64,000 nucleotides of DNA from Thermodesulfobacteriota bacterium (lineage in GTDB: Bacteria; Desulfobacterota; BSN033; UBA1163): the NCBI GenBank assembly GCA_026415035.1, contig JAOAHX010000009.1:1-64000 (forward strand), given 5' to 3'. The notes under the pieces were generated by a model, which saw only the letters and a program-made list of their open reading frames with translations, was not told the DNA's origin and ran no database searches. Within the stretch, counting starts at the first letter, position 1, and each line of letters opens with the position of its first letter. This document shows, one piece after another, positions 7,627-52,523 of this stretch. The position numbers and the translations under genes were made by a program.

Positions 7627-7659
7627 GGATCTGTTTTCGAAGGCGGTTTTTCGGATTCC

Positions 7660-8823: not shown

Positions 8824-8835
8824 GCCTTCTTCTCC

Positions 8836-32077: not shown

Positions 32078-33226
32078 ATGGAATCATCTGAGCTCAACGT
32101 AGCGAGTAAGTTCGAGCTATACGGCTGTTATCAGTGTGGAAAATGCACAGGCGGTTGCCCGGTCTCCCTCAAATCGAGGCTGAACATCCGACGATTGATG
32201 ATCGAGGGAATCCTCGGAAAAAACCTCGATCGGCTCGAAGAGCGAGAAGAGCTCTGGGACTGCACGACCTGCAAGACCTGCACCCTGAGATGCCCCAGAG
32301 GCCTCAAGCCGATGGACCTCGTCATTGGAATGAGGGGCATGCTCGTCGAGGAAGGCCACCTTCCCAAATCGATCATCGAGGCCATGGAGAATGCCTACAA
32401 GCATGGGAACCCCTGGGGGAAGGCCAAGAGCAAGCGGACGGAATGGCTCAAGAGCCTGCCCGAGGGGATCAAGGTGAAGGACTTCTCCCAAGGAGATCGG
32501 GCCGAATATCTCTACTTCGTCGGGTGCACGGCGGCCTCCGACCCGAGGATCCAGGAGATCGCCAAGGCGATGGTCTTCCTCTTTCAACAGTCAGGAGTCG
32601 ATTTCGCCATCCTCGGAAACGAGGAACAGTGCTGCGGCAATGAAATCCGGAGGATGGGCGAGGCCGGGCTCTTCGAAGAATTGATGATGGGAAATGTCGA
32701 GCGTTTCGAATCCTACGGGATCGACCACATCCTCACCGCTTGTCCCCACGGATACAATGTATTTAAAAACGAGTATCCCCAAGGCAAATTCGAGGTCCTC
32801 CACGCCACCCAGATTTTAAGGGAGCGCATAGAAGAGGGAAAAGTCCCATTGACCCGTCCCGTCAAGAAGGTGGTCACCTACCACGATCCCTGCTTCCTTG
32901 GAAAGCAGAACCAGATCTTCGACGACCCTCGAATCCTCCTCACGGCCATCCCTGGGCTGACGTTAAGGGAGCTCGACCGTTCCCGAGAGAGGAGCCTCTG
33001 CTGTGAAGGGGGCGGCGGGAAGATGTGGGCCGAATCGTCGTCGGATACGGGCCAGCGCCTGGCCGAGATTCGGGTTCAGGACGCCGTGGCCTTGGGGGCC
33101 GAGGTCATCGCCACGGCCTGTCCCCTCTGTGTCCTCACCCTGGAGGATGCCGTCAAAACATCCGGACACGAGGAGAGGATCCGCGTGATGGATGTCATGG
33201 AATTGCTCGCGGAGGCCATCGATTGA
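32078..33226 (+). CDS. HdrC-HdrB-like iron-sulfur protein
   Basis: 382 residues. Two [4Fe-4S] motifs open the protein, CYQCGKCTGGCP and CTTCKTCTLRCP, as in HdrC. Two CCG-type domains follow, with 'EEQCCGNEI'...'TACPHGYN' and 'LCCEGGGGKMW'...'TACPLC', as in HdrB, so it is a natural HdrCB fusion. In methanogens HdrBC reduces heterodisulfide; in bacteria such fusions serve as electron modules whose acceptor is often unknown. It starts the redox super-cluster and could partner the HdrA-like proteins at 44173 and 46462. The DRTGG gene begins 1 bp after its stop. Confidence 0.88.
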   Translation: MESSELNVASKFELYGCYQCGKCTGGCPVSLKSRLNIRRLMIEGILGKNLDRLEEREELWDCTTCKTCTLRCPRGLKPMDLVIGMRGMLVEEGHLPKSIIEAMENAYKHGNPWGKAKSKRTEWLKSLPEGIKVKDFSQGDRAEYLYFVGCTAASDPRIQEIAKAMVFLFQQSGVDFAILGNEEQCCGNEIRRMGEAGLFEELMMGNVERFESYGIDHILTACPHGYNVFKNEYPQGKFEVLHATQILRERIEEGKVPLTRPVKKVVTYHDPCFLGKQNQIFDDPRILLTAIPGLTLRELDRSRERSLCCEGGGGKMWAESSSDTGQRLAEIRVQDAVALGAEVIATACPLCVLTLEDAVKTSGHEERIRVMDVMELLAEAID

Positions 33227-33227
33227 C

Positions 33228-33605
33228 ATGAGGCTCCGGGAGATTCAACGGCTCCTTGAAGGCGAGATCGTGGCAGGGACGAACCTCTTGGATCGGGAAA
33301 TCTTCCATGCCTTTGCCGCGGACCTGCTCAGCGACGTCCTGGCCATCGCCAGAAGGGGGGCCGAAGGTGCCATGCTCATCACCGGCAACGTGACCCTTCA
33401 GGTCGTCTACACCGCCGATGTGGTGGACCTGGGAGCCATCCTCTTCGTCCGAGGGAAGAGGCCGACGGAGGCCATGATCGATCTGGCCAATCAGATGGAG
33501 ATCCCTCTCTTGACGACCTCTTATATCATGTTCGAAACCTGCGGACGCCTCTATCAACATGGGTTGAGGGGGTGCGTCGAAAAGGTCGGAGATGGAACAG
33601 ACTGA
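33228..33605 (+). CDS. DRTGG-domain protein 1
   Basis: 125 residues from ATG 33228. The whole protein is one DRTGG-like domain, with 'ADLLSDVLAIARRGAEGAMLITGNVTLQVVYTADVVDLGAILFVRGKRP' and 'MEIPLLTTSYIMFETCGRLY'. Function of such stand-alone domains is not established. They are repeatedly found beside electron-bifurcating NuoEF/HydABC-type gene sets. It overlaps the next gene by 14 bp. Confidence 0.8.
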   Translation: MRLREIQRLLEGEIVAGTNLLDREIFHAFAADLLSDVLAIARRGAEGAMLITGNVTLQVVYTADVVDLGAILFVRGKRPTEAMIDLANQMEIPLLTTSYIMFETCGRLYQHGLRGCVEKVGDGTD

Positions 33606-34071
33606 GGCGAGGTACCCCTTCTACGAGACCTTCCACATCGAGGGAGGAAACTTTAAGCAGGCCGGTTGGGTGTCGAGTCAGGTCAAAAGGATCCTGAAAG
33701 GAGAAGGCCTCCCGAGCGAGGTGATCCGGAGGGTCTCCATCGCCACCTTCGAAGCCGAGATGAACGTCATCTGCTATGCCCACTGGGGGATCCTCAACCT
33801 GCTCGTCTTTTCCGATTACATCAAGGTGGCGGTCGATGACGAGGGCCCTGGGATCCCCGATGTGGAACTGGCGATGCAGGAGGGATTTTCCACCGCCAGC
33901 GAAAGGATCCGGGAGCTCGGATTCGGGGCCGGCATGGGACTGTCCAACATCAAGAAGGTGACCGATGAGATGGTGCTGACCTCGGTCGTTAATCAAGGAA
34001 CCCACCTCGAATTTTTGGTCAGGATCGATGGCGGGCCGACCTCGCGGGCCAGGGGAGAGAACGTCTCGTGA
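33592..34071 (+). CDS. RsbW/anti-sigma-type ATP-binding protein
   Basis: 159 residues with a GHKL ATPase fold: 'RRVSIATFEAEMNVICYAH' (N-box-like), 'VAVDDEGPGIPDVELAM' (G1 box) and 'LGFGAGMGLSNIKKVTDEM' (G2 box). It resembles serine-kinase anti-sigma factors or partner-switch proteins rather than full histidine kinases. No sigma factor or antagonist is in the window. It overlaps the DRTGG genes on both sides, so the three are translationally coupled. Confidence 0.82.
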   Translation: MEQTEARYPFYETFHIEGGNFKQAGWVSSQVKRILKGEGLPSEVIRRVSIATFEAEMNVICYAHWGILNLLVFSDYIKVAVDDEGPGIPDVELAMQEGFSTASERIRELGFGAGMGLSNIKKVTDEMVLTSVVNQGTHLEFLVRIDGGPTSRARGENVS

Positions 34072-34418
34072 AACTTGAGGATCTCGTCAGGGCGCTGGGG
34101 CTGGAGGTCAAGGCGGGGAGAGATCGTCTCGATCAGCCGGTCTCCGGAGGCTACGTCGGAGATCTCCTCAGCGATGTCCTCGCTCATAGCGAAAAGGGAA
34201 ATATCTGGGTCACCATTCAGACCCATCCCAATATCGTAGCCGTGGCCAGCATGAAAGAGCTTTCTGCGGTCCTCCTGGCCGGAGGAAGGGAACCGGATGC
34301 GGAGGCCCTCCAAAAGGCCGAGGAGGAAGAGATCCCTCTTCTTCGGTCTTCCCTTTCGGCCTTCGAACTTGTCGGGAGGCTCTATCAACTTGGGGTCGCA
34401 GGGATCGGGTCATGCTGA
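34068..34418 (+). CDS. DRTGG-domain protein 2
   Basis: 116 residues from GTG 34068, overlapping the previous stop (GTGA). A second DRTGG-like domain: 'GYVGDLLSDVLAHSEKGNIWVTIQTHPNIVAVASMKELSAVLLAGGREP' and 'EEIPLLRSSLSAFELVGRLYQLG'. Shares the 'DLLSDVLA' core with the protein at 33228, so the two are paralogues flanking the ATPase gene. Confidence 0.8.
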   Translation: MKLEDLVRALGLEVKAGRDRLDQPVSGGYVGDLLSDVLAHSEKGNIWVTIQTHPNIVAVASMKELSAVLLAGGREPDAEALQKAEEEEIPLLRSSLSAFELVGRLYQLGVAGIGSC

Positions 34419-35161
34419 GACGATATCGGGCCGATCTTCACATCCACTCCTGCCTCTCCCCCTGCGGGAGCGAGGAGATGAGGCCCCAGGCCGTGGTCGA
34501 TCGGGCCCTCGAGGTGGGACTGGACATGATCGCCATCTGTGACCACAATTCGGCTGAAAACCTCCTGGCCTTTATCGAGGTCGGCCAGAAACACGGCATG
34601 GCCGTCCTCCCGGGGATGGAGGTGACCTCCCGAGAGGAGATCCACCTCCTCACCCTGCTCAACCGGCCTGAAGATTGCCTCCTCTTGCAGGACTGGATCT
34701 ATCACCATCTGCCGGGAGAGAACGATCCGGAGCTTTTCGGCCCCCAGATCTTGGTCGATGAGACCTCGGAGGCCATCGGCCTGACCGAAAAGATGTTGAT
34801 CGGCGCTACCCTCCTCTCTTTCGAGGAGATCGCCCGCTTTGTAAAAGGCCTCGACGGCGTGACGATCGCCTCCCATATCGATCGACAGGCCTTCAGCGTC
34901 ATCGGGCAACTCGGGTTCATCCCGGAGGGGGCGCCCCTCGATGGCCTGGAGGTCTCCTCTCGGATTCCCCTCGAAGAGGCGAGGCATCGATTCCGTATTT
35001 ACCGGCAATATCCTTTCGTCACCTTCTCCGATGCCCACCGCCTCGACGAGATCGGAAGGGGATCGACCCTGTTTCTCCTCGGCGAGAGGACATCGGCAGA
35101 GATCAGGATGGCCCTCCATGCCGAGGGTGGGCGAAAAGTCCTGACCCATGAAGAGGCATAG
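34412..35161 (+). CDS. PHP-domain metal-dependent phosphoesterase
   Basis: 249 residues with PHP motifs: 'YRADLHIHSCLSPCG' (metal-binding HxH), 'AICDHNSAENL', 'GMEVTSREEIHLLTL', 'ASHIDRQAF' and 'FSDAHRLDEIG'. It probably hydrolyses a phosphoester, though its natural substrate is unknown. It overlaps DRTGG protein 2 by 7 bp and belongs to the accessory module in front of nuoE. Confidence 0.85.
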   Translation: MLRRYRADLHIHSCLSPCGSEEMRPQAVVDRALEVGLDMIAICDHNSAENLLAFIEVGQKHGMAVLPGMEVTSREEIHLLTLLNRPEDCLLLQDWIYHHLPGENDPELFGPQILVDETSEAIGLTEKMLIGATLLSFEEIARFVKGLDGVTIASHIDRQAFSVIGQLGFIPEGAPLDGLEVSSRIPLEEARHRFRIYRQYPFVTFSDAHRLDEIGRGSTLFLLGERTSAEIRMALHAEGGRKVLTHEEA

Positions 35162-35172
35162 GGAGAACTTCC

Positions 35173-35766
35173 TTGGAAGAGCTCGCTCTCCATATCCTCG
35201 ACGTGGTCGAAAATGCCATCGCGGCCAAGGCCAAAAAGATCGAAATTTTGATCTCCGAAGAGATAGAGAGGGATCGATTGAGGATCGAGATCAAAGACGA
35301 TGGCTTAGGCATGGATGAAGAGGTGAGGCGAAGGGCCCTCGATCCCTTTTTCACCACCCGCACCTCCCGTCGGGTGGGGCTGGGCCTATCCCTTCTATCC
35401 CAGGCCGCCAAGGCCGCGGGAGGGACGCTCGAAATCGATTCCTCCCCTGAGGCCGGGACGACCGTGAGGGCCACGTTTCAGCATGGTCACATCGACCGTC
35501 AACCCCTGGGGAACCTGACCGAAACGATCCTTATGATCATCTATGGGAATCCAGGGGTCGACCTTCATTATCGCCATGTGAGAGGGAATAAGACCTACTG
35601 TTTCAAAAGCCAATGGTTGAAGGAGCGTTTCGAGGGAGAGGCCTGGATGACCCCGGAGGGGATTCAATGGTTGAGAAAACATCTCCAGGAGGGGCTCTCC
35701 GGAATTGGCGCAGGCCTCGCCTCCTTCGAAGGAGACCCTTCGAGCCGGCGCGAAGGCGCAAGTTGA
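35173..35766 (+). CDS. Histidine-kinase-like ATPase domain protein
   Basis: 197 residues from TTG 35173. GHKL motifs: 'LHILDVVENAIAAKAKKIEI' (N box), 'IKDDGLGMDEEVRR' (G1), 'RVGLGLSLLSQAAKAAGGTLEI' (G2). There is no dimerisation/phospho-His domain, so it is not a complete sensor kinase. The C-terminal ~80 residues are unassigned. It sits 11 bp after the PHP gene and 21 bp before nuoE. Confidence 0.82.
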   Translation: MEELALHILDVVENAIAAKAKKIEILISEEIERDRLRIEIKDDGLGMDEEVRRRALDPFFTTRTSRRVGLGLSLLSQAAKAAGGTLEIDSSPEAGTTVRATFQHGHIDRQPLGNLTETILMIIYGNPGVDLHYRHVRGNKTYCFKSQWLKERFEGEAWMTPEGIQWLRKHLQEGLSGIGAGLASFEGDPSSRREGAS

Positions 35767-35787: not shown

Positions 35788-36267
35788 ATGAGATGGGTGG
35801 AGGAGATCTCCCGCGATGAGTGGGAGAGGATCGACCAGGTGATCGACAAGTATCGGGGAAGGCATGGGGCCCTGATCCCTGTGCTCAAGGAGGTTCAGGA
35901 CATCTGCGGTTATCTGCCCAAAAAAGTCCAGCACCGGATCGCCGACCGCCTCCACCTGCCCACCTCCCAGGTCTACGGCGTGGTCTCCTTCTACGCCTTC
36001 TTCACGACCGTCCCGAGGGGCCGCTACATCATCCGGGTCTGTCTGGGAACCGCCTGTTACGTGAAAGGTTCCAAAGAGATCCTCGACACCCTCCAGAGGG
36101 AACTGGACGTGGAGGTGGGGGGGATCACGAGAGATCGGAGATTTACCCTCGAAGCGGTCCGGTGTGTGGGGGCCTGCGGGTTGGCCCCGGTGGTGGTGAT
36201 CGGTCAGGATACGCACGGGATGGTCACTCCGGGGAGGATCATCGACCTTCTGGGAAACTATCCATAG
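35788..36267 (+). CDS. nuoE: NuoE-like [2Fe-2S] subunit
   Basis: 159 residues of the thioredoxin-like 24-kDa subunit family. The four cluster ligands lie in 'CLGTACYVKG' and 'RCVGACGLAP'; 'GYLPKKVQHRIADRLHLPTSQVYGVVSFYAFF' is the family N-terminal pattern. It links NADH oxidation at NuoF to other carriers in NADH dehydrogenases, bifurcating hydrogenases and formate dehydrogenases. Confidence 0.93.
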   Translation: MRWVEEISRDEWERIDQVIDKYRGRHGALIPVLKEVQDICGYLPKKVQHRIADRLHLPTSQVYGVVSFYAFFTTVPRGRYIIRVCLGTACYVKGSKEILDTLQRELDVEVGGITRDRRFTLEAVRCVGACGLAPVVVIGQDTHGMVTPGRIIDLLGNYP

Positions 36268-36279
36268 CAGGGTGAAACG

Positions 36280-36663
36280 ATGCCAAAGATGACCCTCGAA
36301 GACCTGAAACGCATCAAGGAGGAGGTGAGGGCCTCCACCATGTTGAGGGAAGGGGGCTTCCGGGCCAAAATCACGATCCACATGGGGACCTGCGGGATCG
36401 CGGCAGGGGCCCGGAAGGTGATGAGCGCTGCCCTGAAGGCGATTGAAGACCATCAGGTCCGGGACGTGATGGTGACCACTTCGGGATGCGCCGGGCTCTG
36501 CAGCCGGGAGCCCATGGCCACCGTGGAGATCCTTGGGAAACCTCCGGTGAAATATTGCGACCTCAACGAGGAAAAGATGAAAGAGATCTTCGCCAGCCAT
36601 ATCCTCAAGGGAGAGGTGGTGGAATCCTATGCCCTGGCCAGAGGAAGCGAAACGACTTATTAA
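36280..36663 (+). CDS. Thioredoxin-like [2Fe-2S] ferredoxin
   Basis: 127 residues with 'ITIHMGTCGIAAGARKVM' and 'VTTSGCAGLCSREPMATVEI', four cysteines spaced as in the small ferredoxins encoded between NuoE and NuoF in HydABC/HndABCD-type operons. Likely an additional electron-entry or transfer subunit of the same complex. 12 bp after nuoE. Confidence 0.88.
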   Translation: MPKMTLEDLKRIKEEVRASTMLREGGFRAKITIHMGTCGIAAGARKVMSAALKAIEDHQVRDVMVTTSGCAGLCSREPMATVEILGKPPVKYCDLNEEKMKEIFASHILKGEVVESYALARGSETTY

Positions 36664-36693: not shown

Positions 36694-38481
36694 ATGAAGC
36701 CCTATCGAGCCCATCTCATGGTCTGCGCGGGAACGGGGTGCGTCGCCTGCGGCTCCCTGCAGTTGAAGGAGCGGTTTGCGGAGGAACTGGGGAAACGGGG
36801 GTTGAGCGAAGAGGTTCAGGTCGTCTTGACCGGTTGCAATGGCTTCTGCGCCGAAGGCCCGATCGCCGTCGTCTATCCCGAGGGGATCTTTTATCGGAAA
36901 TTAAGCCCCGAGGATGTCCCCCACCTGGTGGAGGAACATTTCCTCAAGGGCAGGCCCGTTCAAAAACTTCTCTATACCGCTCCGGCCGACAAAGAGAAAG
37001 TCCCCCTCATGAAGGACATCCCCTTCTTCCAGCATCAGGTGTTGAGGGCCCTTCGGAATCGGGGGTTGATCGATGCGGAAAATATCGACGAATATATCGC
37101 CAGGGACGGCTATGCGGCCCTCCATAAGGTCCTCACCTCGATGACCCCAGAACAGGTGATCGAGGAGGTCAAGATCTCCGGGCTAAGAGGCCGAGGGGGG
37201 GCTGGCTTCCCCACCGGGAAGAAATGGGAGGAGGGGAGACGCTACACCTCCTTTCCGAAGTATGTGATCTGCAATGGGGACGAAGGCGACCCGGGCGCCT
37301 TCATGGACCGCTCCATCCTCGAGGCCGATCCCCACGCCGTCCTCGAAGGGATGATCATCTGCGGCTATGCCATCGATTCCCACCAGGGATATATCTATGT
37401 CCGGGCGGAGTATCCTCTGGCGATCCACAGGCTGACGATCGCCATCGATCAGGCCAGAAATTACGGACTTCTCGGAAAGGACATCTTCGGAACGGGCTTC
37501 GACTTCGACATTGCGATCTATCCCGGGGCTGGGGCCTTCGTCTGTGGGGAGTCGACCGCCCTCATGTACTCCCTGGAGGGGAAGCGCGGGATGCCCAGGA
37601 TCAAGCCCCCCCGTTCCACCGAAGCGGGCCTCTGGGGACAGCCCACGGTCCTCAATAACGTGGAGACCTTTGCCAATATCCCCCAGATCCTCCTCCACGG
37701 GGGGACCTGGTTCGCCTCCCTCGGCACCGCGGGGTCGAAAGGGACGAAGGTCTTCGCCCTGACCGGCGCGGTCCAGAATGTGGGGCTGATCGAGGTCCCC
37801 ATGGGTACGACCCTGAGAAAGATCGTCTTTGACATCGGCGGGGGCATTCCGGACAAACGGGAATTTAAGGCGGTTCAGATCGGGGGGCCATCCGGGGCCT
37901 GTCTGCCCGCCTCCCTCCTCGATACCGAAGTGGACTTCGACTCCCTGGATGAGGCCGGGGCGATGATGGGCTCGGGAGGCCTCGTGGTGATGAACGACCA
38001 GACCTGCATGGTCGACACGGCCCGGTTCTTCACCGACTTTTCGGTGGACGAGTCCTGCGGCAAATGCGTTCCTTGTCGGGTCGGCATGAAGGTGATGCTC
38101 AACATCCTCCACCGGATCACCCACGGTGAGGGAAAGCTGGAGGACATCGAACTGCTCGAAACGCTCGGCCATCATATCAAGGAGACCTCTCATTGCGGCC
38201 TGGGCAAGTCGGCTCCCAACCCGGTCCTCTCGACCATCCGCTACTTCCGGCAGGAGTACGAGGCCCATATCCTCGATAAGCGCTGCCCGGCTTTGGTCTG
38301 CCCCGACTTGATCAAGTTCAGGGTCATTCCAGAGAAGTGTAAGATGTGTGGCCTCTGCTACAAGGCATGCCCGATGGGCGCCATCACCTGGGAGAAGAAG
38401 GCCGTGGCCGTGATCGATCCGGAGAAATGCACTCGATGCCGCTCCTGCATCCAGGCCTGTAAGTTTTGGGCCATCGAATAG
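36694..38481 (+). CDS. nuoF: NuoF-like NADH/FMN subunit with extra ferredoxin domains (HydB/HndC type)
   Basis: 595 residues. N-terminal thioredoxin-like [2Fe-2S] domain ('VCAGTGCVACGS', 'TGCNGFCAEGP'), FMN/NADH core ('GLRGRGGAGFPTGKKW', 'CNGDEGDPGAFMDR', 'GAGAFVCGESTALMYSLEG'), the N3-type cluster 'ESCGKCVPCRVG', then two C-terminal [4Fe-4S] motifs CKMCGLCYKACP and CTRCRSCIQACK. This extended layout is that of bifurcating HydB/HndC subunits rather than respiratory NuoF. It exchanges electrons between NADH and iron-sulfur chains. Confidence 0.93.
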   Translation: MKPYRAHLMVCAGTGCVACGSLQLKERFAEELGKRGLSEEVQVVLTGCNGFCAEGPIAVVYPEGIFYRKLSPEDVPHLVEEHFLKGRPVQKLLYTAPADKEKVPLMKDIPFFQHQVLRALRNRGLIDAENIDEYIARDGYAALHKVLTSMTPEQVIEEVKISGLRGRGGAGFPTGKKWEEGRRYTSFPKYVICNGDEGDPGAFMDRSILEADPHAVLEGMIICGYAIDSHQGYIYVRAEYPLAIHRLTIAIDQARNYGLLGKDIFGTGFDFDIAIYPGAGAFVCGESTALMYSLEGKRGMPRIKPPRSTEAGLWGQPTVLNNVETFANIPQILLHGGTWFASLGTAGSKGTKVFALTGAVQNVGLIEVPMGTTLRKIVFDIGGGIPDKREFKAVQIGGPSGACLPASLLDTEVDFDSLDEAGAMMGSGGLVVMNDQTCMVDTARFFTDFSVDESCGKCVPCRVGMKVMLNILHRITHGEGKLEDIELLETLGHHIKETSHCGLGKSAPNPVLSTIRYFRQEYEAHILDKRCPALVCPDLIKFRVIPEKCKMCGLCYKACPMGAITWEKKAVAVIDPEKCTRCRSCIQACKFWAIE

Positions 38482-38547: not shown

Positions 38548-41037
38548 ATGGCACACCAAACCATAAAACTGAGAATCGACGGGATTGAGGTGGAGGTCGA
38601 AAAGGGCAAATCGATCCTCGAGGCCGCCCAGGCCGCGGGGATCCGGATCCCCTCCCTCTGCCATGATCGCAGACTCGTCCCCTTCGGTGCGTGCAGGCTC
38701 TGCATGGTCGAAGAAAAGGGGAAACCCGAACTCATTCCCTCCTGTTTTACCCCCGCCAAAAACGGGATGGAGATTTTAACGAATACTCCAAAAATCATCC
38801 AATCCCGAAGGATCCAGCTTCAGTTCATCCTTTTGAACCATCCCATGACCTGCCCCCGTTGCGAAAAGGAGGGAGAGTGCGATCTCCAAGATCTGGTGTA
38901 CGAATATGGGGTCGGCGACACCCCCTATCCCTGGGAACCGATCCATTTTCCCGAGGATCGCTCCCCCTTGATCCAGAGACATGGGAATAAGTGCATCCTC
39001 TGCGGCCGTTGCGTCAGGATCTGCGACGAGGTTCAAGGGGTGGGGGAACTCTCTTTCACGCACAGAGGGATCCGGGCCATCATCGACACCGATTTCCACC
39101 GGCCCCTGAATTGCGAGTTCTGCGGCCAGTGCCTCGACACCTGTCCGGTGGCCGCGATCACCAGCGATTGCTTCGACACGCAGACCAAATTCTGGGAGTT
39201 GAAAGAGACGACCACCCCCTGCCCATACTGCAGCGTCGGCTGTCTCCTCATCATCGGCTCGAAAGACGGGGAGATCAAACGCGTCTTCTCCTCGCCTGAA
39301 AAGGGCCCCAACGACGGAAACCTCTGTGTGAGGGGGCGCTTCGGATGGGACGTGGCCGATTCTCCCGAGAGGATCGAGGATCCCCTTCTCAAGAGGAACG
39401 GGGCCTTCGAAAAGGCCTCCTGGGAGGAGGCCCTCCGCTTCGTCGTTCAAAGGCTCGAAGAGGTCAAGTCAAAATACGGACCAGAGAGCATCGGGGCCAT
39501 CGTCTCCCCCCGCCTGACCAACGAAGAATACTTCCTCTTCAAAAGGCTTTTCGAGGAGGCGATCGGAACGAAGCAGATTGCCCTGGCGACCTCCCCAGGG
39601 GACCTCGGGTTGGCAGAGGGGCTGGCCAAGAGCCTCGGGATCGGTGCTTCCACCAACTCCATTCAGGAGATCGGAAAGGCCGATTGCCTTCTGGTCATCG
39701 GGGTCGATCCGGCCCAGACCCATCCCATTGTCAAGAACGAGATCCATCGGGCCATCCGGAAGAACAGGGCCCAGCTCATCGTCCTCGGCCCCTCGGACAT
39801 CGGCCTCAGTCGGGCCTCCCGTCTCTCCCCCCTCTCGCCGCCTTCCCTTCTCATCCCTGCGAGGCCGGGCCAAGAACTGGCCTTTCTCAACGGGATGTCC
39901 GCACTGGTCTTGAAGGAGGGACTCGAAGATCGAGGCTTTATCGACCGTCACACCTCAGGGGTTGAAGCGATGAGCAAGGCGCAAGATCATTCGCCCCTGT
40001 CCGAGGAAGAACGAGCCCTCGTCGAAAAGGCTGCAAGGGCCTTCGCCCGGTCTAAGAGATCGATGATCCTCGTCGGGTCGGGACCGTGGTCCAGAGGGGA
40101 GGCCGAAAAGATCGGCCTCGCCTGTGCCAACCTGGCCCTCCTGACCGGACATGTCGGAAAGGAGGGTTCGGGGATCCTCCTCCTTCTCGAAAAGTGTAAC
40201 AGCCAGGGCGCCATCGACATGGGGGTTCCGGGACCCAAGGAGGTGAAGGATCTCCTCCGAGCGGCAGAGGAAGGAAACCTCAAGGCCCTCTACCTGGTGG
40301 GAGCGAATCCGGCCACAAACCAAAAGGCCCTTCAGGGCCTCGAACTGCTCGTGGTGCAGGATCTCTTCCTGACCGAAACCGGGAAGCAGGCCCATGCCTT
40401 CCTGCCCGCCTCTTCCTTCGTTGAAAAGGAGGGCACCTACACCAGCCTCGAGCGCAGGGTCCAGGCCTTACAACCTCTTCGTCCTCCAAGAGGACGGTCT
40501 GAGCGGGATTTCGACATCTTTCTCCAGCTCCTGAGAATGATGGAGTCCCCTCTTCCAGGAGAGACGCCCCAGGCCATCTTCCAAGAGATCTCGGCGAGGA
40601 TCCCCTGGTACCGGGATCTGACCGTGGGCGAACAGTGGCCGAAAGGGACCACCTACCTTTACGGAGAGGGATTCCCTTCGGGCAAGGCCAACATCCTCCC
40701 CGTTGGTTCGGCTCCTCCGCCCCCCCCCATCGAAGACTATCCCTTCTTCCTGATCGAAAGACCGACCCTCTTCCGCAGCGGAGAGCTCAGCCTCCGGAGC
40801 GGACATCTCAAGAAGGTGATGGAACCCCCCGCCCTGAGATTGAATGCCGAAGAGGCTCGGTCCATGAATCTCGAAGAGGGAGAGGTGGTCGAACTGGTCT
40901 CCCAGGCCGGCAAAAAGCTGAGGCTTAAGGTCCGTCTCTCGGCCGATCCCATCCCGGGGGTCATCTTGACTCCTTATCCGTCTCCCATGAAGGAAGAAGG
41001 CCCGGTCAGGGTGAGGTTGGAGAGGTTGAAGAAGTAA
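38548..41037 (+). CDS. NuoG/formate-dehydrogenase-like iron-sulfur molybdopterin-fold protein lacking catalytic Cys/Sec
   Basis: 829 residues. [2Fe-2S] domain (C38, C49, C52, C66), NuoG-type cluster (H98, C102, C105, C111), two [4Fe-4S] clusters (C149-C159, C189-C199), the molybdopterin-domain cluster (C225, C228, C232, C260), then a molybdopterin oxidoreductase fold with 'GIGASTNSIQEI' and 'GVDPAQTHPIV'. A gapless match from memory to E. coli FdhF places SPGD (349-352) where Sec140-His141 lie, so the Mo ligand and catalytic His are absent. It is probably an electron-conducting scaffold as in complex I, not an active formate dehydrogenase. The C-terminus carries a repeat-like 'LTPYPSPMKEEG' peptide. 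Confidence 0.85.
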   Translation: MAHQTIKLRIDGIEVEVEKGKSILEAAQAAGIRIPSLCHDRRLVPFGACRLCMVEEKGKPELIPSCFTPAKNGMEILTNTPKIIQSRRIQLQFILLNHPMTCPRCEKEGECDLQDLVYEYGVGDTPYPWEPIHFPEDRSPLIQRHGNKCILCGRCVRICDEVQGVGELSFTHRGIRAIIDTDFHRPLNCEFCGQCLDTCPVAAITSDCFDTQTKFWELKETTTPCPYCSVGCLLIIGSKDGEIKRVFSSPEKGPNDGNLCVRGRFGWDVADSPERIEDPLLKRNGAFEKASWEEALRFVVQRLEEVKSKYGPESIGAIVSPRLTNEEYFLFKRLFEEAIGTKQIALATSPGDLGLAEGLAKSLGIGASTNSIQEIGKADCLLVIGVDPAQTHPIVKNEIHRAIRKNRAQLIVLGPSDIGLSRASRLSPLSPPSLLIPARPGQELAFLNGMSALVLKEGLEDRGFIDRHTSGVEAMSKAQDHSPLSEEERALVEKAARAFARSKRSMILVGSGPWSRGEAEKIGLACANLALLTGHVGKEGSGILLLLEKCNSQGAIDMGVPGPKEVKDLLRAAEEGNLKALYLVGANPATNQKALQGLELLVVQDLFLTETGKQAHAFLPASSFVEKEGTYTSLERRVQALQPLRPPRGRSERDFDIFLQLLRMMESPLPGETPQAIFQEISARIPWYRDLTVGEQWPKGTTYLYGEGFPSGKANILPVGSAPPPPPIEDYPFFLIERPTLFRSGELSLRSGHLKKVMEPPALRLNAEEARSMNLEEGEVVELVSQAGKKLRLKVRLSADPIPGVILTPYPSPMKEEGPVRVRLERLKK

Positions 41038-41063: not shown

Positions 41064-41855
41064 ATGAATATCATCGTCTGCATCAAAAGGGTTCCGGACA
41101 CGGCCGACGCAGATATCTTCATCGACAAGTCTGGAAAGGATATCGAGAAGAGCGGCCTGGCCTTCGACCTGAACGAATGGGACAGTTATGCCATCGAGGA
41201 GGCGATCCAGCTGAAGGAGAAGCTGGGCGGAACCGTGACCGTCCTCACCTTGGGGGGGGAGGATTCGAACGAATCGCTGAGAAAGTGTCTCGCCATGGGC
41301 GCGGATGACGCCTTTCGGCTCTATGATCCTGCTTTTGAAGGGGGGGACGGGTTGGCCACGGCCCGAGTCCTTGCAGAGGCGATCCGCCAGCGACCCTACG
41401 ATCTCATCCTGACCGGCACCCAGGCGGAGGACGACGGTTACGGCCAGGTGGGGGGGATGATTGCGGAGATGCTTGGCATCCCCCACGTCTCCATCGTCAA
41501 CAAGATCGAAGTGCAGGAGAAGAAGATCAAAGCCCATCGGGAACTGGAAGGAGGACTGGAGGAGGTCGTGGAGGTGGACCTCCCAGCCCTTCTCACCATT
41601 CAGACCGGCATCAACGAACCTCGATACGTCTCCATCATGGGCATCCGGAAGGTGGCCAAGAAGGAGATCAAGGTATTCGGGGCCTCCGATCTGAACCTGA
41701 AGCCTGAGGAAGTGGGGAGACCCGGGTCAGACCTGCAGCTTGAACACATCTTCCTTCCCCCTGTCGGTGAGGGGGCGCAGATCTTAGAGGGAAAGCCCGA
41801 GGAGATCGCCCAGAAGGTCTTCGATATTCTGAAAGAAAAAGGAGGGGTGGCCTGA
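41064..41855 (+). CDS. etfB: Electron transfer flavoprotein, beta subunit
   Basis: 263 residues with the EtfB start 'MNIIVCIKRVPDT' and the nucleotide-binding 'LTGTQAEDDGYGQVGGMIAEMLG'. It binds AMP or a second flavin and accepts electrons from acyl-CoA dehydrogenases. The 'QVG' form resembles bifurcating EtfB more than the mitochondrial type, but the motif differs from both (DDGY), so bifurcation cannot be called from this alone. The stop overlaps etfA by one base. Confidence 0.93.
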   Translation: MNIIVCIKRVPDTADADIFIDKSGKDIEKSGLAFDLNEWDSYAIEEAIQLKEKLGGTVTVLTLGGEDSNESLRKCLAMGADDAFRLYDPAFEGGDGLATARVLAEAIRQRPYDLILTGTQAEDDGYGQVGGMIAEMLGIPHVSIVNKIEVQEKKIKAHRELEGGLEEVVEVDLPALLTIQTGINEPRYVSIMGIRKVAKKEIKVFGASDLNLKPEEVGRPGSDLQLEHIFLPPVGEGAQILEGKPEEIAQKVFDILKEKGGVA

Positions 41856-42835
41856 TGAAAGAGATCATCGTTGTTGCGGAACATCGACGGGGAGAGTTGA
41901 GGGATGTGACCTTTGAGATGCTCTCAAAAGGAAGGGAACTGTCGGAAAGCCTCGGCGCCCAGCTCTCGGTCGCCCTCCTAGGAAAGGATGTGAGGCCCCT
42001 GGCGGAGGCCCTCAAACCGAAGGCCAACCGGGTGCTTCTCGTCGAGGACCCTCGGCTCGAAAGCTACAATTCAGAGACCTATGAGAAGGTTCTTACCCAC
42101 CTTCTCACGGAGCGAAGACCGATCTTGACGATGATCGGCCACACCGCCACCGGGATGGACTTTGCCCCGCCCCTGGCCGCCCACCTGAAACTCCCCCTGG
42201 CCACAGACCTCATCGGCATCGAACCCAAAGACGAGACCTTTGCCCTGACCCGGCAGATCTACGGAGGAAAGATCAACGCCGCCGTCTCGTTTCTCAAGAA
42301 ATCGCCCTCCTACATCGTCACCCTCCGGGCCGGTGCCTTTCCGGTGGTCGAGAAGCCTCCTCTGGAGGGCGAGATCGTGCCCGTGGCCTCTCCGCTGACG
42401 GATGAGGCGTTGGCCAGACGTTTCATCGAATATGTGGAGAGCGCGGCAGGAGAGGTCGATATCTCCCAGGCCGATATCTTGGTGGCCATCGGAAGGGGGA
42501 TCAAGGATGCCGAGAACATCCCCATGGTCAAAGAGCTGGCCGACTCCATCGGCGGTGTCCTCGCCTGTTCCCGGCCGGTGGTGGACAAGAAGTGGCTCCC
42601 GAAGGGTTGCCAGGTCGGAACCTCCGGCAAGACCGTCAAACCCAAGGTCTACATCGCCCTCGGGATCAGCGGGGCTTTCCAGCACGTGGCGGGGATGAAA
42701 GGCTCGGGGACCATCATCGCCGTCAACAAGGACCCCAAGGCCCCCATCTTCAGCGTCGCCCATTATGGCATCGTGGCGGACCTTTTCAAGATTCTTCCTG
42801 TGATTAAGGAGAAGTTGAAGGAGCTGAAAAAATGA
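41855..42835 (+). CDS. etfA: Electron transfer flavoprotein, alpha subunit
   Basis: 326 residues. The FAD-binding C-terminal domain shows '[45 protein letters not shown]'. No extra ferredoxin domain is fused, unlike some clostridial EtfA proteins. It pairs with EtfB to carry acyl-CoA-derived electrons. The genes sit between the Nuo-like genes and an acyl-CoA dehydrogenase, implying a dedicated route. Confidence 0.94.
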
Positions 42836-42860: not shown

Positions 42861-44015
42861 ATGGATTTCGAACTGACCCAGGAGCAGAAGGATATCCAGA
42901 AGGCGGCCCGAGAGTTCATCCAGGGAGAGTACGATAAGGAGAAGATCCTCGAATGGGAGCAGACCCATTCCTTCCCCCGAGAGGTCTGGAAGAAGGCCTG
43001 CAAACTGGGCTTCATCGGCATTCATTTTCCGGAAGAGTATGGAGGGCAAGGTTACGGCATCATGGAGAATATCCTCGTGGTCGAGGAGTTCTGCCGGAAG
43101 GATTCGGGCGTGGGCATTGCCGTGACCTTGGCAGACTTCTCCTCCGAGGTGATCCTCCGTTTCGGCAACGAGGCCCAGAAGAAGAAGTATCTCATCCCGG
43201 TGGCCCGGGGCGAGATGATCTCAGGGGGCGCCTATACCGAACCCAATCACGGAAGCGACATCACCCTGATGGCCACCACCGCGGTGAAGCAGGGAGACTG
43301 CTTCGTGATCAACGGGACGAAAACCTTCATCACGAACGGGTTGCTCGCCGACTTCTTCGTGGTCCTTTGCCAGACCGATCCCCAGGCCAAACCGCCCTAC
43401 CGAGGCCAGTGCACCATCCTCGTGGAGAGGGGGACCAAGGGATTGGAGGCCACCGAGATCATGCCGAAGATGGGGATCCGAATGACCTCCACGGCGGAGC
43501 TCTCCTTCAGCGACGTTCGAGTGCCCTTGACCCACCTGATCGGCGAGGAGAACAGAGGGTTCTACCAGGTCCTCGAATTCTTCGACGAGAGCCGGATCGA
43601 GATCGCAGCCCAGGGGGTGGGAATCGCCCAAGGAGCCTTTGACCGGGCTCTCGAATATGCCAAACAGAGGGAGCAGTTTGGAAGGAAGATCGTGGATTTC
43701 CAGGTCACCCAGCACAAGCTGGCCGATATGGCGACGAAAGTCGAGGTGGCCAGGCTTCTCACCTACAAGGCGGCCTGGAACTACGATCAGGGACGGATCG
43801 ATCCCAAACTGACCTCGATGGCAAAGATGTTTGCCGGAAGAGTGGCTGTGGAGGTGGCCGACGAGGCCATCCAGATCTTCGGCGGCTATGGCTACATCAC
43901 CGAATACGAGGTGGAGCGATTCTATCGCGACGCCAAGATCACCGAGATCTACGAAGGCACCAAGGAGATCCAGAAGAACACGATCGCCAGTGCCTTAATC
44001 GGAAAGATGAAGTGA
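42861..44015 (+). CDS. Acyl-CoA dehydrogenase paired with EtfBA
   Basis: 384 residues: 'GGAYTEPNHGSDITLMATTAVKQG', 'VINGTKTFITNG', 'RIEIAAQGVGIAQGAFDRALEYAKQREQFGRKI' and catalytic Glu in 'IYEGTKEIQKN'. It desaturates an acyl-CoA at C2-C3 and reduces ETF. The gene is 25 bp after etfA, with a GGGAGGAGG ribosome site, which suggests these three proteins work as one unit. Chain-length specificity unknown. Confidence 0.93.
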   Translation: MDFELTQEQKDIQKAAREFIQGEYDKEKILEWEQTHSFPREVWKKACKLGFIGIHFPEEYGGQGYGIMENILVVEEFCRKDSGVGIAVTLADFSSEVILRFGNEAQKKKYLIPVARGEMISGGAYTEPNHGSDITLMATTAVKQGDCFVINGTKTFITNGLLADFFVVLCQTDPQAKPPYRGQCTILVERGTKGLEATEIMPKMGIRMTSTAELSFSDVRVPLTHLIGEENRGFYQVLEFFDESRIEIAAQGVGIAQGAFDRALEYAKQREQFGRKIVDFQVTQHKLADMATKVEVARLLTYKAAWNYDQGRIDPKLTSMAKMFAGRVAVEVADEAIQIFGGYGYITEYEVERFYRDAKITEIYEGTKEIQKNTIASALIGKMK

Positions 44016-44172
44016 CCTTCAACCCAAATTCCGAAACCCGAAGGAGGGATAAAGAGCAGGGGGATCAGGCAGGCCGGATCCACCCCAAAGCCCCTCGAGG
44101 GGATGGAAAGGCCAGTCGAGATTCCTTTCGAGGTTCGAGATTCGGATTTTGGTTCGATGAGTGGAAAGAGAG
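44016..44172. other. Gap with degenerate TTCGG-rich filler sequence
   Basis: The space between the acyl-CoA dehydrogenase and the first HdrA-like gene contains 'CCGAAACCCGAAGG' and 'GAGGTTCGAGATTCGGATTT', resembling filler in other gaps (6325, 30788, 46421, 54291). No promoter or terminator is recognisable. Confidence 0.35.
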
Positions 44173-46419
44173 ATGAAGGTTGAAGAAGAGAAAATGATCC
44201 CCGAGGCATTGATCATCGGGGCCGGCATCGCAGGGATGCAGGCGGCTCTCGACATCGCGGACAAGGGCTTCAAGGTCCATCTCGTGGAGAAGGACCCTTC
44301 GATCGGAGGCCATATGGCCCAGCTCGACAAGACCTTCCCCACCCTCGACTGCTCCGCCTGCATCATCACCCCGAAGATGGTCGACACGGCCAATCACCCC
44401 AACATCAACCTCATGACCTATTCGGAGGTGGTGAAGATCGAGGGGAAGGTGGGGGACTTCAAGGTCACGATCCGGAAGAAACCCCGCTACGTCGAGATGA
44501 CGAAATGCACGGCCTGTGCGGACTGCGTCTCCAAATGTCCGGTCTCCCTTCCCAATGAATTCGACATGGGGCTCGGTCTGAGGAAAGCGATCTACATCCC
44601 CTTCCCTCAGGCCGTCCCGCTCAAATATACGATGGATCGGAGAGGGACCCCGCCCTGCACCGCAACCTGTCCCCTCCACTGCAATGCCCAGGGCTACGTG
44701 GCCCTCATCTCCCAAGGAAAATTGAAGGAGGCCCTGGCCCTGGTGAGGCAGACCCTGCCCTTTCCCGGGATCCTCGCCTATGTCTGCGCCCGTCCCTGTG
44801 AAAGGGAATGCAAGAGGATCGAGGTGGATCGGCCCGTCTCCATCTGCCATCTGAAACGTTTCCTGGTCGATCACGTAGAGGAAGAAGACCTCCCCCTTGC
44901 CCCTTCGGAGGAGAAACCCCAGAAGGTCGCCATTGTGGGCGGAGGGCCTGCAGGCCTGACCGCGGCCTTCGATCTGAGGAGGAAGGGATACGCCGTGACC
45001 CTCTTCGAGGCGAAAGAGGAACTGGGCGGTCTCCTCACCCATGGCTTCCCCTCTTACCGGCTCCCGAAGGAGGTCGTGAAGAAGGACCTCTCGGTCGTTG
45101 AAAAGATGGGGGTCGAAATCCGGCTCAATACCGTGGTGGGAAGAGACCTCTCCTTCGAGGAGCTCCAGAAGACCTTTGATGCCCTCTTCATCTCCGTGGG
45201 GGCCTCCGGAGCTCATGACCCTGCCTTTGACGCGCTGCGGAAGAACCGGAGGGGGATGATCCAGGTCGATCCCCTCACGCTGGAGACCAATCTCAAGGGA
45301 GTCTTCGCCGGAGGCGATGCGGTCACAGGTCCCGGGACCATTATCGAGGCGATGGCCCAGGGGAGAAAGGCCGCCACCTCCATCGATCGTTGGATCCGGG
45401 GAGAGGACCTCCGGGCGGGCCGGGAGAATGAAGGGAAAACGGTCTCCCCCATGCAGAGTTCGATGCCTTATCCCGAAAGGCAACAGAGGGAAACCCCACC
45501 CCACATGATCGAGCCCCTTGGGCCGGGTCTAACCCTCGAGGAGGCCATGGAGGAGGCCAGGCGGTGCCTCAACTGCGGCGGATGTTCCGACTGCGGGGAA
45601 TGCGCCAAATACTGTCAACCCAAGGCGATCAATTATCAGATGAAGGAAGAGCTCGTCGAACTCCATGTAGGGGTCATCATCCTGGCCACCGGGTTCGACC
45701 CCTTCGATCCCAAATTGAAGCCCGAATTTGGCTACGGCGTCTATCCCAATGTCCTTCACGGAATCGAGATGGAGCGTCTCTGTTCCGCTTCGGGTCCGAC
45801 CAAGGGCGAGATCCTGATCCAAGGGAAGAAACCCAAAGAGATCGTCTTCATCCACTGTGTGGGTTCGAGGGATAAAACCGTCGGAAACGAATACTGTTCC
45901 AGGGTCTGTTGTATGTACACGGCCAAACAGGCCCATCTCGTTCGGGACAAGATCCCCGAGGCCCATATCACGGTCCTCTATATGGATGTGAGGGCCTTCG
46001 GGAAGGGATTCGAAGAATTTTACGAGAGGGTTCAGAAGGAGGAGATCGTCTATCGGAGGGCCAACCCCTCCGAAGTCTATCAACGGAACGGGAAGTTGGT
46101 GGTGCGGGCGGAGGATACCCTCCTCGGAGAACCCCTCGAACTGGAGGCGGACCTGGTGGTGCTCGCCTCGGGACTGGTGCCCAGGCGGGAGGACGGGCCT
46201 CTTAAAGCGATGCTCGGCCTCGAAAGCTCTTCGGATCGATTCTACGGGGAAGCCCCTGGGTTGGATCCGATCCTTACCCCGGTCGAAGGCATCTTTTTGG
46301 CCGGGTGCTGTCAAGGCCCGAAGGATATCCCCGACACGGTCGCCCAGGCAAGCGGCGCCGCCGCCCTGGCCTGCACCTTTTTGTCAAAAGGTCGCCGTCG
46401 CGACCTCAAGGTTGCGTAA
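44173..46419 (+). CDS. HdrA-like flavoprotein with nested GltD-like NAD(P)H-oxidoreductase module
   Basis: About 748 residues; in-frame GTG 44161 is an alternative start. It opens with the HdrA flavin fold ('GAGIAGMQAALDIADKGFKVHLVEKDPSIGGHMAQLD') and 'LDCSACIITPKM', lacking HdrA's usual N-terminal ~140 residues. CTACADCVSKCP follows, then a glutamate-synthase-small-subunit (GltD) module inserted at ~44640-45420 ('TATCPLHCNAQGYVALI', 'VAIVGGGPAGLTAAFDLRRKG', 'FAGGDAVTGPGTIIEAMAQGRKAA'). CGGCSDCGECAKYC comes next, and the HdrA C-terminal half resumes ('CVGSRD', 'YCSRVCCMYTAKQAH', 'CCQGPKDIPDTVAQASG'). With two predicted FADs and several clusters, it could couple NAD(P)H to an Hdr/ferredoxin chain. 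Confidence 0.88.
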   Translation: MKVEEEKMIPEALIIGAGIAGMQAALDIADKGFKVHLVEKDPSIGGHMAQLDKTFPTLDCSACIITPKMVDTANHPNINLMTYSEVVKIEGKVGDFKVTIRKKPRYVEMTKCTACADCVSKCPVSLPNEFDMGLGLRKAIYIPFPQAVPLKYTMDRRGTPPCTATCPLHCNAQGYVALISQGKLKEALALVRQTLPFPGILAYVCARPCERECKRIEVDRPVSICHLKRFLVDHVEEEDLPLAPSEEKPQKVAIVGGGPAGLTAAFDLRRKGYAVTLFEAKEELGGLLTHGFPSYRLPKEVVKKDLSVVEKMGVEIRLNTVVGRDLSFEELQKTFDALFISVGASGAHDPAFDALRKNRRGMIQVDPLTLETNLKGVFAGGDAVTGPGTIIEAMAQGRKAATSIDRWIRGEDLRAGRENEGKTVSPMQSSMPYPERQQRETPPHMIEPLGPGLTLEEAMEEARRCLNCGGCSDCGECAKYCQPKAINYQMKEELVELHVGVIILATGFDPFDPKLKPEFGYGVYPNVLHGIEMERLCSASGPTKGEILIQGKKPKEIVFIHCVGSRDKTVGNEYCSRVCCMYTAKQAHLVRDKIPEAHITVLYMDVRAFGKGFEEFYERVQKEEIVYRRANPSEVYQRNGKLVVRAEDTLLGEPLELEADLVVLASGLVPRREDGPLKAMLGLESSSDRFYGEAPGLDPILTPVEGIFLAGCCQGPKDIPDTVAQASGAAALACTFLSKGRRRDLKVA

Positions 46420-46461: not shown

Positions 46462-48396
46462 ATGAAGATCGGTGTCTATATCTGCCATTGCGGAATCAAC
46501 ATCGCGGCCACGGTCGATATCGAGCGGGTGACGGCCTTCGCCTCGACGCTTCCCCATGTGGCCATCGCCAGGAACTATCAGTACATGTGCTCCGATCCGG
46601 GTCAGGACTGGATCAAGAACGACATCAAGAATTTGGGCATCGATCGCGTGGTGGTGGCAGCCTGCTCCCCAAGGATGCACGAGCCCACCTATCGGAATGC
46701 CTGTCGCTCCGCTGGGCTCAATCCTTACTTTTTCGAAATGGCCAACATCCGGGAGCAATGCTCCTGGGTGCATGCCGACCGGGAGGAGGCGACGAAGAAG
46801 GCGATGGACCTGATCGCCTCTGCGGTGGCCAAGGTCTCGCTCCATGAGCCTCTCGAGGAGAACGAGGTGGGCGTGACCCCATCGGTCCTCGTCATCGGCG
46901 GCGGGATCGCGGGGATCCAGGCGAGCCTCGACGTGGCCAATTCGGGTTTCGAAGTCTATCTCGTGGAGAAATCTCCTTCGATCGGAGGCCATCTGGCTCA
47001 GATCTACCGGACCTTCCCGTCCCTCGAAGAGACCTCCACCCTGCTCCTCCCGAAACTTCAGCAGGTCCATCACCACCCGCTCATCCACCTTCTCACCCAG
47101 ACCGAATTGGTGGAGGTGGAGGGTTTCGTGGGGAACTTCCAGGCCAAGCTCAAACACAGGCCCCGGCATGTCAACCCCGAACGATGCACCTGCTGCAAAA
47201 AATGCGAGGAGGTCTGCCCGGTCAGGGTTCCGAACGAATTCAACCTGGGTCTCGATGAACGACCGGCCATCTACCTTCCCTTTCCGGATGCCGTGCCCCG
47301 CTGCTATACCATCGACGCCGAAAACTGTCTCTACTTCACCAAAGGGGAGTGCGGCCGGTGCCGTGAGATCTGCCCGGAAGGCGCGGTCCAGTTCGAAGAG
47401 GTGGGGATGGAGTTCGAGGTCAAAATCGGAACGATCATCGTGGCCACGGGCTATGACCCCTTCGATCCCAAATTGAAGCCCGAACTGGGTTACGGCGTCT
47501 ATAAAAACGTCATCACGGGTCTCGAACTGGAGAGGTTGCTGGCCCCTGACGGACCGACCCGGGGAAAGCTCCTGATCGAGGGCAAGGAGCCCAAAAATAT
47601 CGTCTTCATCAAATGTGTTGGCTCCAGGGACAAGACCGTCGGAAACGAGTACTGCTCCCGCATCTGCTGTATGTTCACGGCCAAACAGGCCTATCTCCTC
47701 AAGGAGAGGATCCCCGATGCCCGGATCACCATCTGCTACATCGACGTCCGGGCCTTCGGCAAAGGCTACGAACAGTTCTACGAGGCCGTCCAGCTCAAAG
47801 GGATATACTATCGAAAGGGCGTCCCATCGGAGATCTACCAGAGAAATGGAAAGTTGATCGTCAAGGCGGACGACGAACTCCTCGGGGAGCCCTACGAGGA
47901 AGAGGCCGATCTGGTCGTGCTGGCCACCGGCCTCACCCAGAGACAGGACGCCTCGGCCCTGAGGGGTCTTCTCAAGCTCTCCCTTTCTCCAGATCGCTTC
48001 TATCTCGAGGCCCATCCGAAGCTGAGGCCCCTCGATACGGCCGCCGATGGGATCTTCCTGGCCGGGACCTGTCAAGGTCCCAAGGATATCATGGATACGC
48101 TCTCCCAGGCCCACGGGACCGCCTCGCGGGCGACCATCCCGCTCTTTGCCGGCAAGGTGAGGATCGAGCCCATCACCGCCTGGGTCGATGTGGAGATCTG
48201 CGCGGGATGCGGGCTTTGCGAGCAAATCTGCGAATACCGGGCCTTGAGGCTCGACCCATACCGAAAGGTGATGACCGTCAACAAGGCCCTGTGCAAGGGG
48301 TGTGGCGCCTGCAACGCCACCTGCCCCTCGAGCGCCATCACCCTGAAACACTTCAAGACGGAGCAGATCATGGCCCAGCTCAGGGAGGTCTGTTAA
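46462..48396 (+). CDS. hdrA: HdrA-like iron-sulfur flavoprotein with C-terminal ferredoxin domain
   Basis: 644 residues. Standard HdrA N-terminus 'MKIGVYICHCGINIAATVDIE' and 'ACSPRMHEPTYRNAC', FAD fold 'GGGIAGIQASLDVANSGFEVYLVEK', CTCCKKCEEVCP and CGRCREICP clusters, 'YCSRICCMFTAKQAY' and 'CQGPKDIMDTLSQAHG', then CAGCGLCEQICE and CKGCGACNATCP at the C-terminus. The segment that in most HdrA reads DCSACI is EETSTL here, so those cysteines are missing (compare 44173). In HdrA the FAD is the bifurcation site. Probably teams with the HdrCB-like protein at 32078 and the neighbouring HdrA-like protein. Confidence 0.9.
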   Translation: MKIGVYICHCGINIAATVDIERVTAFASTLPHVAIARNYQYMCSDPGQDWIKNDIKNLGIDRVVVAACSPRMHEPTYRNACRSAGLNPYFFEMANIREQCSWVHADREEATKKAMDLIASAVAKVSLHEPLEENEVGVTPSVLVIGGGIAGIQASLDVANSGFEVYLVEKSPSIGGHLAQIYRTFPSLEETSTLLLPKLQQVHHHPLIHLLTQTELVEVEGFVGNFQAKLKHRPRHVNPERCTCCKKCEEVCPVRVPNEFNLGLDERPAIYLPFPDAVPRCYTIDAENCLYFTKGECGRCREICPEGAVQFEEVGMEFEVKIGTIIVATGYDPFDPKLKPELGYGVYKNVITGLELERLLAPDGPTRGKLLIEGKEPKNIVFIKCVGSRDKTVGNEYCSRICCMFTAKQAYLLKERIPDARITICYIDVRAFGKGYEQFYEAVQLKGIYYRKGVPSEIYQRNGKLIVKADDELLGEPYEEEADLVVLATGLTQRQDASALRGLLKLSLSPDRFYLEAHPKLRPLDTAADGIFLAGTCQGPKDIMDTLSQAHGTASRATIPLFAGKVRIEPITAWVDVEICAGCGLCEQICEYRALRLDPYRKVMTVNKALCKGCGACNATCPSSAITLKHFKTEQIMAQLREVC

Positions 48397-48954: not shown

Positions 48955-49071
48955 GGATCGATAGGATCGTTGTCCTGTTGGGGTTTCTCGAGACGACCGT
49001 AGGAAAGCCCGCCTGGGGCTACCGATCCATCTTCTCCATGAACGGATTCTCTTCAAGAGGGGGTGGGGTCC

Positions 49072-50745: not shown

Positions 50746-50759
50746 AGGCGGAGGGGGAC

Positions 50760-52507: not shown

Positions 52508-52523
52508 ACAAGGAGGTGACAGA

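Follow-up and report, generated by a model that had tools for sequence, protein, structure and literature searches.

The window analysed here is a stretch of 64,000 nucleotides (positions 1 to 64,000, forward strand) of contig JAOAHX010000009.1 from the Thermodesulfobacteriota bacterium assembly GCA_026415035.1, and the gene at positions 38548-41037 encodes an 829-residue BfuA/NuoG-like subunit that has lost the active site of its formate dehydrogenase (FDH)-type domain. The iron-sulfur (Fe-S) ligands and the fold of the protein have been retained, the gene is under purifying selection and descends from nuoG of a bifurcation-type (Nuo-Bfu) complex I, and it is located in an operon of electron-transfer flavoprotein (ETF) and heterodisulfide reductase (Hdr)-type genes. 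The protein is probably the BfuA (NuoG-type) subunit of a soluble NADH/ferredoxin-bifurcating module, with a dead FDH-type domain and wired to ETF/Hdr proteins.

Lost active site and retained Fe-S ligands

The features of the gene are given as coordinates, strand, description and basis.

38548..41037, +, BfuA/NuoG-like subunit with a predicted inert FDH-type domain, 829 residues (open reading frame, profile and phmmer matches, alignment, tree)
38659..39144, +, N-terminal Fe-S ligands (2Fe-2S, Cys3His 4Fe-4S and two 4Fe-4S clusters), residues 38-199, all kept (Pfam, alignment)
39220..39327, +, ligands C225, C228, C232 and C260 of the FDH-type 4Fe-4S cluster, residues 225-260, all kept (Pfam, alignment)
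39331..39333, +, R262, in a column that is Lys in 49/49 FDHs and in 10/14 family members (alignment counts)
39370..40530, +, molybdopterin oxidoreductase domain PF00384, residues 275-661 (Pfam)
39580..39606, +, former active-site loop, residues 345-353 (least conserved nonamer among 14 family members)
39592..39603, +, SPGD, residues 349-352, with G351 in the Sec/Cys column and D352 in the His column (MAFFT alignment)
40186..40188, +, L547, in the catalytic Arg column, which is Arg in 49/49 FDHs and Leu in 13 and His in 1 of 14 family members (alignment counts)
40810..40989, +, molybdopterin dinucleotide-binding domain PF01568, weak, residues 755-814 (26.4 bits, cut-off 26.8)

Bases 39592-39603 (tccccaggggac), read in the frame of the open reading frame (ORF) 38548-41037, encode S349, P350, G351 and D352, and the original prediction that SPGD stands here in place of a catalytic selenocysteine (Sec) or cysteine and a histidine was borne out by the reading frame and by the MAFFT alignment. 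The alignment was made with Sec/Cys FDHs and repeated with orthologues added, and the Rhodobacter capsulatus FDH (6tg9_A) was aligned across the same region by phmmer. Two motifs that in FDHs mostly read GTNN.D.CAR.(U/C)H and LRGQNNVQG are GTKQIALATSPGD and LLEKCNSQG in the window protein. R262 and L547 occupy the columns of a Lys near the 4Fe-4S cluster and of an Arg, both of which we take to be catalytic in FDHs. Lys, Sec/Cys, His and Arg were each present in all 49 FDH rows, a set that was defined by having Sec/Cys-His, and in the 14 rows of orthologues from the same bacterial family (window included) Sec/Cys, His and Arg were each found in 0/14. With Sec/Cys, His and Arg all lost, formate oxidation would not be expected, as had been argued from the window alone. 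Matches of at least 560 residues (joined or single) were aligned, with five distant molybdenum enzymes of the same genome (L006, L008-L011) set aside, and the loci of relatives were taken from the best 80 of 250 candidates.

Among the 821 nonamers of the family alignment, residues 345-353 had the lowest conservation (42% mean identity to the commonest residue vs 76% over all columns), and some members have gaps in the loop that once surrounded the metal ligand. Because both residues are absent from 14/14 family members and the loop is the least conserved nonamer, SPGD is not the product of chance or of a sequencing error. A substitute Cys at the metal site was rejected, since the only non-ligand Cys residues are at positions 208, 380, 526 and 550, none of them in the Sec/Cys column, and no Cys occurs between residues 261 and 379. 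Selenocysteine was likewise rejected; no in-frame TGA was found in the whole ORF, unlike the paralogue in the same genome. A pseudogene is ruled out by dN/dS ratios of 0.10-0.16 for bfuA (six pairs, the most distant of which has a dS of 1.84 that makes its ratio rough) and by 13 full-length orthologues besides the window; one further genome (G007) has a bfuA fragment only, at a contig end.

All Fe-S ligands had been predicted to be kept, and the 19 Fe-S Cys residues are each invariant in 14/14 family members, 49/49 FDHs, and 12/12 and 10/10 NuoG relatives, as is His98 of the Cys3His cluster in a 30-row alignment. The NuoG-type Fe-S domains PF13510, PF10588 and PF22117 were identified by Pfam together with an FDH-type 4Fe-4S domain. 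NCBIfam scores were under both cut-offs, at 402.2 bits for NuoG (TIGR01973, cut-off 470.05) and 369 bits for the FDH alpha subunit (cut-off 666). The top solved relatives are NAD-dependent FDHs, and StnC (8oh5_C), 9bov_A, complex I subunits and HydA of NiFe-HydABCSL are also among the matches.

An AlphaFold model built from the 30-row alignment had a mean predicted local distance difference test score of 80.4 and was weak at residues 101-110 and 137-213. In superposition with E. coli FDH-H, residues 218-829 of the model fit at 2.1-2.3 A across 600 residues (Z 38.6-38.9), and Z scores of 32.7 and 35.0 were obtained against 8oh5_C and 9bov_A, respectively; for the complex I NuoG chains listed, the match ends at about residue 763. 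The model and the PF00384 match agree with the original assignment of a molybdopterin-type fold, and the model indicates that the FDH fold is kept, C-terminal part included, with the active site gone. Of the 131 columns that are nearly invariant in FDHs, 82 are kept in the window protein, and those of Sec/Cys, His and Arg are lost.

Descent from NuoG

Trees were computed by a quick method from hand-picked subsets (50 rows for BfuA, 42 rows for BfuB) with Shimodaira-Hasegawa-like approximate likelihood ratio test (SH-aLRT) support. In the BfuA tree the FDHs are split from the non-catalytic rows by a branch with SH-aLRT 100, and the family forms one clade (100) on the NuoG side with a long stem branch (0.67). 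The proposal that the protein is an intermediate between FDH and NuoG is rejected on the basis of this tree. Outside the family, the proteins closest to it are encoded in complex I operons. Since the protein nests on the NuoG side and its outside relatives sit in complex I operons, the loss of the site is common to NuoG proteins and older than the lineage. In the BfuB tree the family falls inside the NuoF proteins from complex I operons of one NuoG group, SY (SH-aLRT 99). This tree has several long branches (L089_B the longest), the BfuB of L041 was cut to 620 residues for it, and the paralogues of the window's own genome, used as outgroup, do not fall on one side of a branch.

In group SY (12 rows) Sec/Cys and Arg are absent and the His column is Tyr in all 12. 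A second NuoG group, CY, of Desulfuromonadales type, comprises 23 rows; 22 of them have Cys and one has Ser in the Sec/Cys column, all 23 have Tyr in place of His, and none has Arg, so NuoG of this type can, by alignment, keep the Cys when His and Arg are missing. Such a half-erased site, with Gly for Arg, is seen for example in L027, L028 and L035. One protein (G046) has Ala-His at the two columns though it groups with CY in the tree, and was therefore left out of both counts (23 CY rows and 49 FDH rows). The nuo genes adjoin nuoG in 24/24 CY loci and 9/12 SY loci; of the remaining three, L016 is a short contig, the gene of L038 reaches the contig end, and L018 shows no nuo genes. As a separate observation, a Cys-His FDH-type BfuA and a dead NuoG-type BfuA flank one BfuBC pair on one contig (L016:327-3020 and 6517-9195).

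Operon structure and conservation

The neighbouring genes in the window are as follows.

32078..33226, +, HdrD/TfrB-like Fe-S protein with CCG domains, 382 residues (sequence matches)
33192..35766, +, accessory genes of the module: two small, presumably DRTGG-like proteins, a PHP-type protein and two HATPase-type proteins (same set beside nuoEFG in relatives)
35788..36267, +, BfuC/NuoE-like subunit, 159 residues (best solved match 7t2r_C, 157 bits)
36280..36663, +, 2Fe-2S ferredoxin-like protein, 127 residues (profile match)
36694..38481, +, BfuB/NuoF-like subunit, 595 residues, with N-terminal 2Fe-2S and C-terminal 2x4Fe-4S extensions (best solved match 7t2r_B)
41064..41855, +, EtfB (sequence matches)
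41855..42835, +, EtfA (sequence matches)
42861..44015, +, acyl-CoA dehydrogenase-like protein, 384 residues (label from reading the sequence, without a family scan)
44161..46419, +, HdrA-like protein interrupted by a GltD-like domain, 752 residues (Pfam, sequence matches)
44641..45555, +, GltD-like insert, residues 161-465 of the HdrA-like protein (comparison of loci)
46462..48396, +, full-length HdrA, 644 residues (sequence matches)

Residues 3-594 of the 595-residue BfuB align to 7t2r_B (845 bits, phmmer), and its N- and C-terminal Cys motifs are present. According to PMC9304861, the extra N- and C-terminal BfuB cluster regions are missing from non-bifurcating homologues. The features by which that paper recognises the Bfu family were found in the window by sequence, namely a BfuB with the extra cluster regions (judged by phmmer and Cys motifs rather than by the paper's InterPro domains), a BfuC, and a BfuA with 2Fe-2S and 4Fe-4S domains.

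In the family, the BfuCBA module sits between the hdrD-like gene and etfB of an ETF/acyl-CoA dehydrogenase/HdrA operon. EtfB is encoded next after BfuA on the same strand in 14/14 family loci with a continuing contig (gap of -4 to about 224 bases). In all 10 loci that extend far enough, the HdrA-like gene comes after it, and the gene order is conserved in 14/14 loci over four genus codes. Complex I membrane-arm genes were found in 0/15 family loci (the window, L124-L136 and L141); a single 28-bit match to the NuoI query in the window was attributed to general ferredoxin similarity. When EtfB was searched for in 297 genomes of the phylum, 58 gave matches at E 1e-70, and 15 module-less loci were picked from the results. 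These have no BfuABC, and an HdrD-like gene lies directly before EtfB in 14/15, one being a second ETF set of the window's own genome; the exception, L188, has no EtfB in its gene listing. Several of these loci continue with acyl-CoA dehydrogenase, HdrA-like, HdrA and methylmalonyl-CoA mutase-like genes in the order of the window.

The HdrA-like protein is 745-770 residues long and carries the GltD-like insert in 10/10 family loci reaching the gene (window and L126-L135 included). Among eight module-less HdrA-like proteins, seven (435-551 residues) are without the insert and one (L188, 899 residues) has it. The GltD portions of StnC and NfnABC are among the closest solved relatives of the insert. 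Further downstream, genes in the same direction at 48430-53681 encode a CobA/CobO-type adenosyltransferase (48430), a methylmalonyl-CoA mutase (49063) and thiolase-like proteins (51266 and 52524), which, judging by these predicted products, is an acyl-CoA degradation region.

Proposed role and alternatives

The module would consist of BfuC (35788), BfuB (36694) and BfuA (38548), with NADH/ferredoxin bifurcation at the BfuBC core. In the Bfu scheme, BfuBC holds the FMN and six clusters, and BfuA brings electrons from the third substrate (PMC9304861). Because the FDH site is dead, another protein must be the entry point of the third substrate. The inert FDH-type domain would serve as scaffold and docking surface, and the N-terminal Fe-S chain of BfuA would carry electrons from the BfuBC core to a partner or back. 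The most probable candidates for this partner are encoded in the same operon, either EtfAB with the acyl-CoA dehydrogenase, the HdrD-like and HdrA proteins, or both. Electrons could flow from NADH and reduced ferredoxin to drive ETF/Hdr, or in reverse with bifurcation at the level of Hdr; a potential of about -10 mV is given for crotonyl-CoA (PMC9304861).

Several points weigh against this assignment. The sole link to ETF/Hdr is gene order, in that the EtfAB, HdrD-like and HdrA genes adjoin the module, and the best solved relatives of EtfA and EtfB are mixed as to bifurcating type. Given the FDH-conserved columns that are kept, the domain may still be able to bind a pterin or some other ligand, and C550, three residues past the lost Arg column, is a family-specific Cys present in 13/14 members. 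Four further BfuB paralogues (53-55% identical; G000:C34, C4, C3 and C30, L143-L146) are encoded in the same 3.06 Mb genome, and therefore partners could be exchanged; beside each of these paralogues lies a short segment similar to the N-terminus of BfuA.

Bfu and NuoG subunits with a dead FDH domain have precedents in StnC and NuoG, and the dead site itself is ordinary. NuoG of Nuo-Bfu complex I (Type 3 Bfu; PMC9304861) shares with the window protein its side of the BfuA tree, the BfuB clade, the accessory genes, the full Fe-S set and the missing Sec/Cys-His-Arg site, whereas the window module is without adjacent membrane-arm genes, lies in an ETF/HdrA operon and has a far more variable active-site loop. 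In StnC of Nfn-Bfu (8OH5, PMC10482914; also 9BOV), a BfuA with a catalytically inactive FdhF domain, that domain, which has side-branch clusters, is retained because it is required for assembly, and with this precedent and the kept Fe-S ligands and fold, the wiring or scaffold subunit originally suggested is the best reading. Unlike StnC, which has a GltD/NADPH domain in its own chain, the window has its GltD-like domain in the neighbouring HdrA-like protein, and no GltD-like Pfam domain was detected in the 829-residue protein at E 1e-5. NiFe-HydABCSL (7T2R, Type 3 Bfu) provides the closest solved BfuB and BfuC, and its BfuA itself has no catalytic site (PMC9304861), but no hydrogenase subunit genes were noted in the window operon, and HydA (692 residues) scores 240 bits, below the FDHs. 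Bam-Bfu (BamBCDEFGHI), by the description in PMC9304861, similarly joins a Bfu module to an HdrA module and is linked to acyl-CoA chemistry, but it has a Type 2 BfuA without the A3/A5 clusters, the ligands of which are all present in the window, and no BamB/BamC-type gene was recognised beside the window module. The alpha subunit of NAD-dependent FDH (6TG9, 9WXB) is the best PDB sequence match (376 bits) and has the same architecture, but not the loss of Sec/Cys, His and Arg.

The placement of the module in an ETF/Hdr operon looks new and was seen, among the loci examined, in this bacterial family only. No description of an ETF-linked Bfu module was found in the literature covered, which comprised main-text portions of accessible papers and included PMC5109826, PMC6687939, PMC5606693, PMC5736913, PMC10482914 and PMC9304861.

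Alternatively, the module could still be the NADH input of complex I acting in trans, with NuoEFG merely encoded apart from the other nuo genes. Its descent from NuoEFG of complex I operons would fit, as would a case described for Chloroflexi, where one genome has a nuoEFG operon apart from its 11-subunit Nuo (PMC5736913). The complex I cluster on contig 27 of the same genome (L137, G000:C27:8000-27900) encodes NuoB, C, D, H, I and L, with further pump-type ORFs in the places of M and N, and is without a full NuoF, the NuoF search having found only a C-terminal piece on this contig. However, the cluster also encodes a Sec-FDH that begins like NuoG and a 650-residue protein in which the C-terminal Fe-S domain of NuoF is fused to a GltD-like part, and from these sequences its input seems to be already provided by the two proteins. 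The module moreover lies inside the ETF/Hdr operon in every family locus examined, and the family BfuA has a long stem branch, which would agree with a change of partner, so that a role in trans is rather unlikely. In the complex I operon of L041, the NuoF is a 1019-residue ORF that also matches the GltD-like fusion and is, by sequence, a possible precursor of it.

A module merely carried along as an insertion in the operon, working alone with an unlinked partner, is improbable. The four other BfuB genes of the genome and the presence of the accessory genes in complex I operons as well are consistent with it, whereas the order conserved over four genus codes and the GltD-like insert that accompanies the module in the adjacent HdrA-like protein speak against it. 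Also against it, G004 and G014, the two genomes of the family in which no BfuA orthologue was matched, gave no EtfB match at E 1e-60, although such an empty result carries little weight and missing contigs could explain it; the assemblies are listed as 90% and 86% complete, respectively. Equally doubtful is an active oxidoreductase for another substrate, whose domain would bind a pterin cofactor and use other residues; the kept FDH columns, the conserved C550 and the C-terminal part past residue 763, unmatched by the complex I chains listed, would suit such an enzyme, but its former metal-ligand loop is the least conserved nonamer of the protein and Arg and His are lost as well.

A soluble bifurcating module with an inert BfuA domain and an ETF/Hdr partner is preferred. 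More tentatively, the module may represent a functionally new Bfu branch, in which the NADH-input module of complex I, inert FDH domain included, was lifted into an ancestral HdrD-EtfBA-acyl-CoA dehydrogenase-HdrA operon, where it would couple acyl-CoA/ETF and Hdr chemistry to NADH and ferredoxin; a GltD-like domain would have been added to the HdrA-like protein, and complex I would run on the selenocysteine FDH and the trimmed NuoF-GltD fusion. The dead site adds one case to StnC and NuoG, and it is the module swap that could matter. The recovery of electrons from acyl-CoA oxidation as NADH and reduced ferredoxin in anaerobes is a standing question of syntrophic metabolism, and a family with the spliced-in module, set beside sister operons that are module-less, could offer a natural before-and-after pair for testing how electrons are recovered from acyl-CoA.

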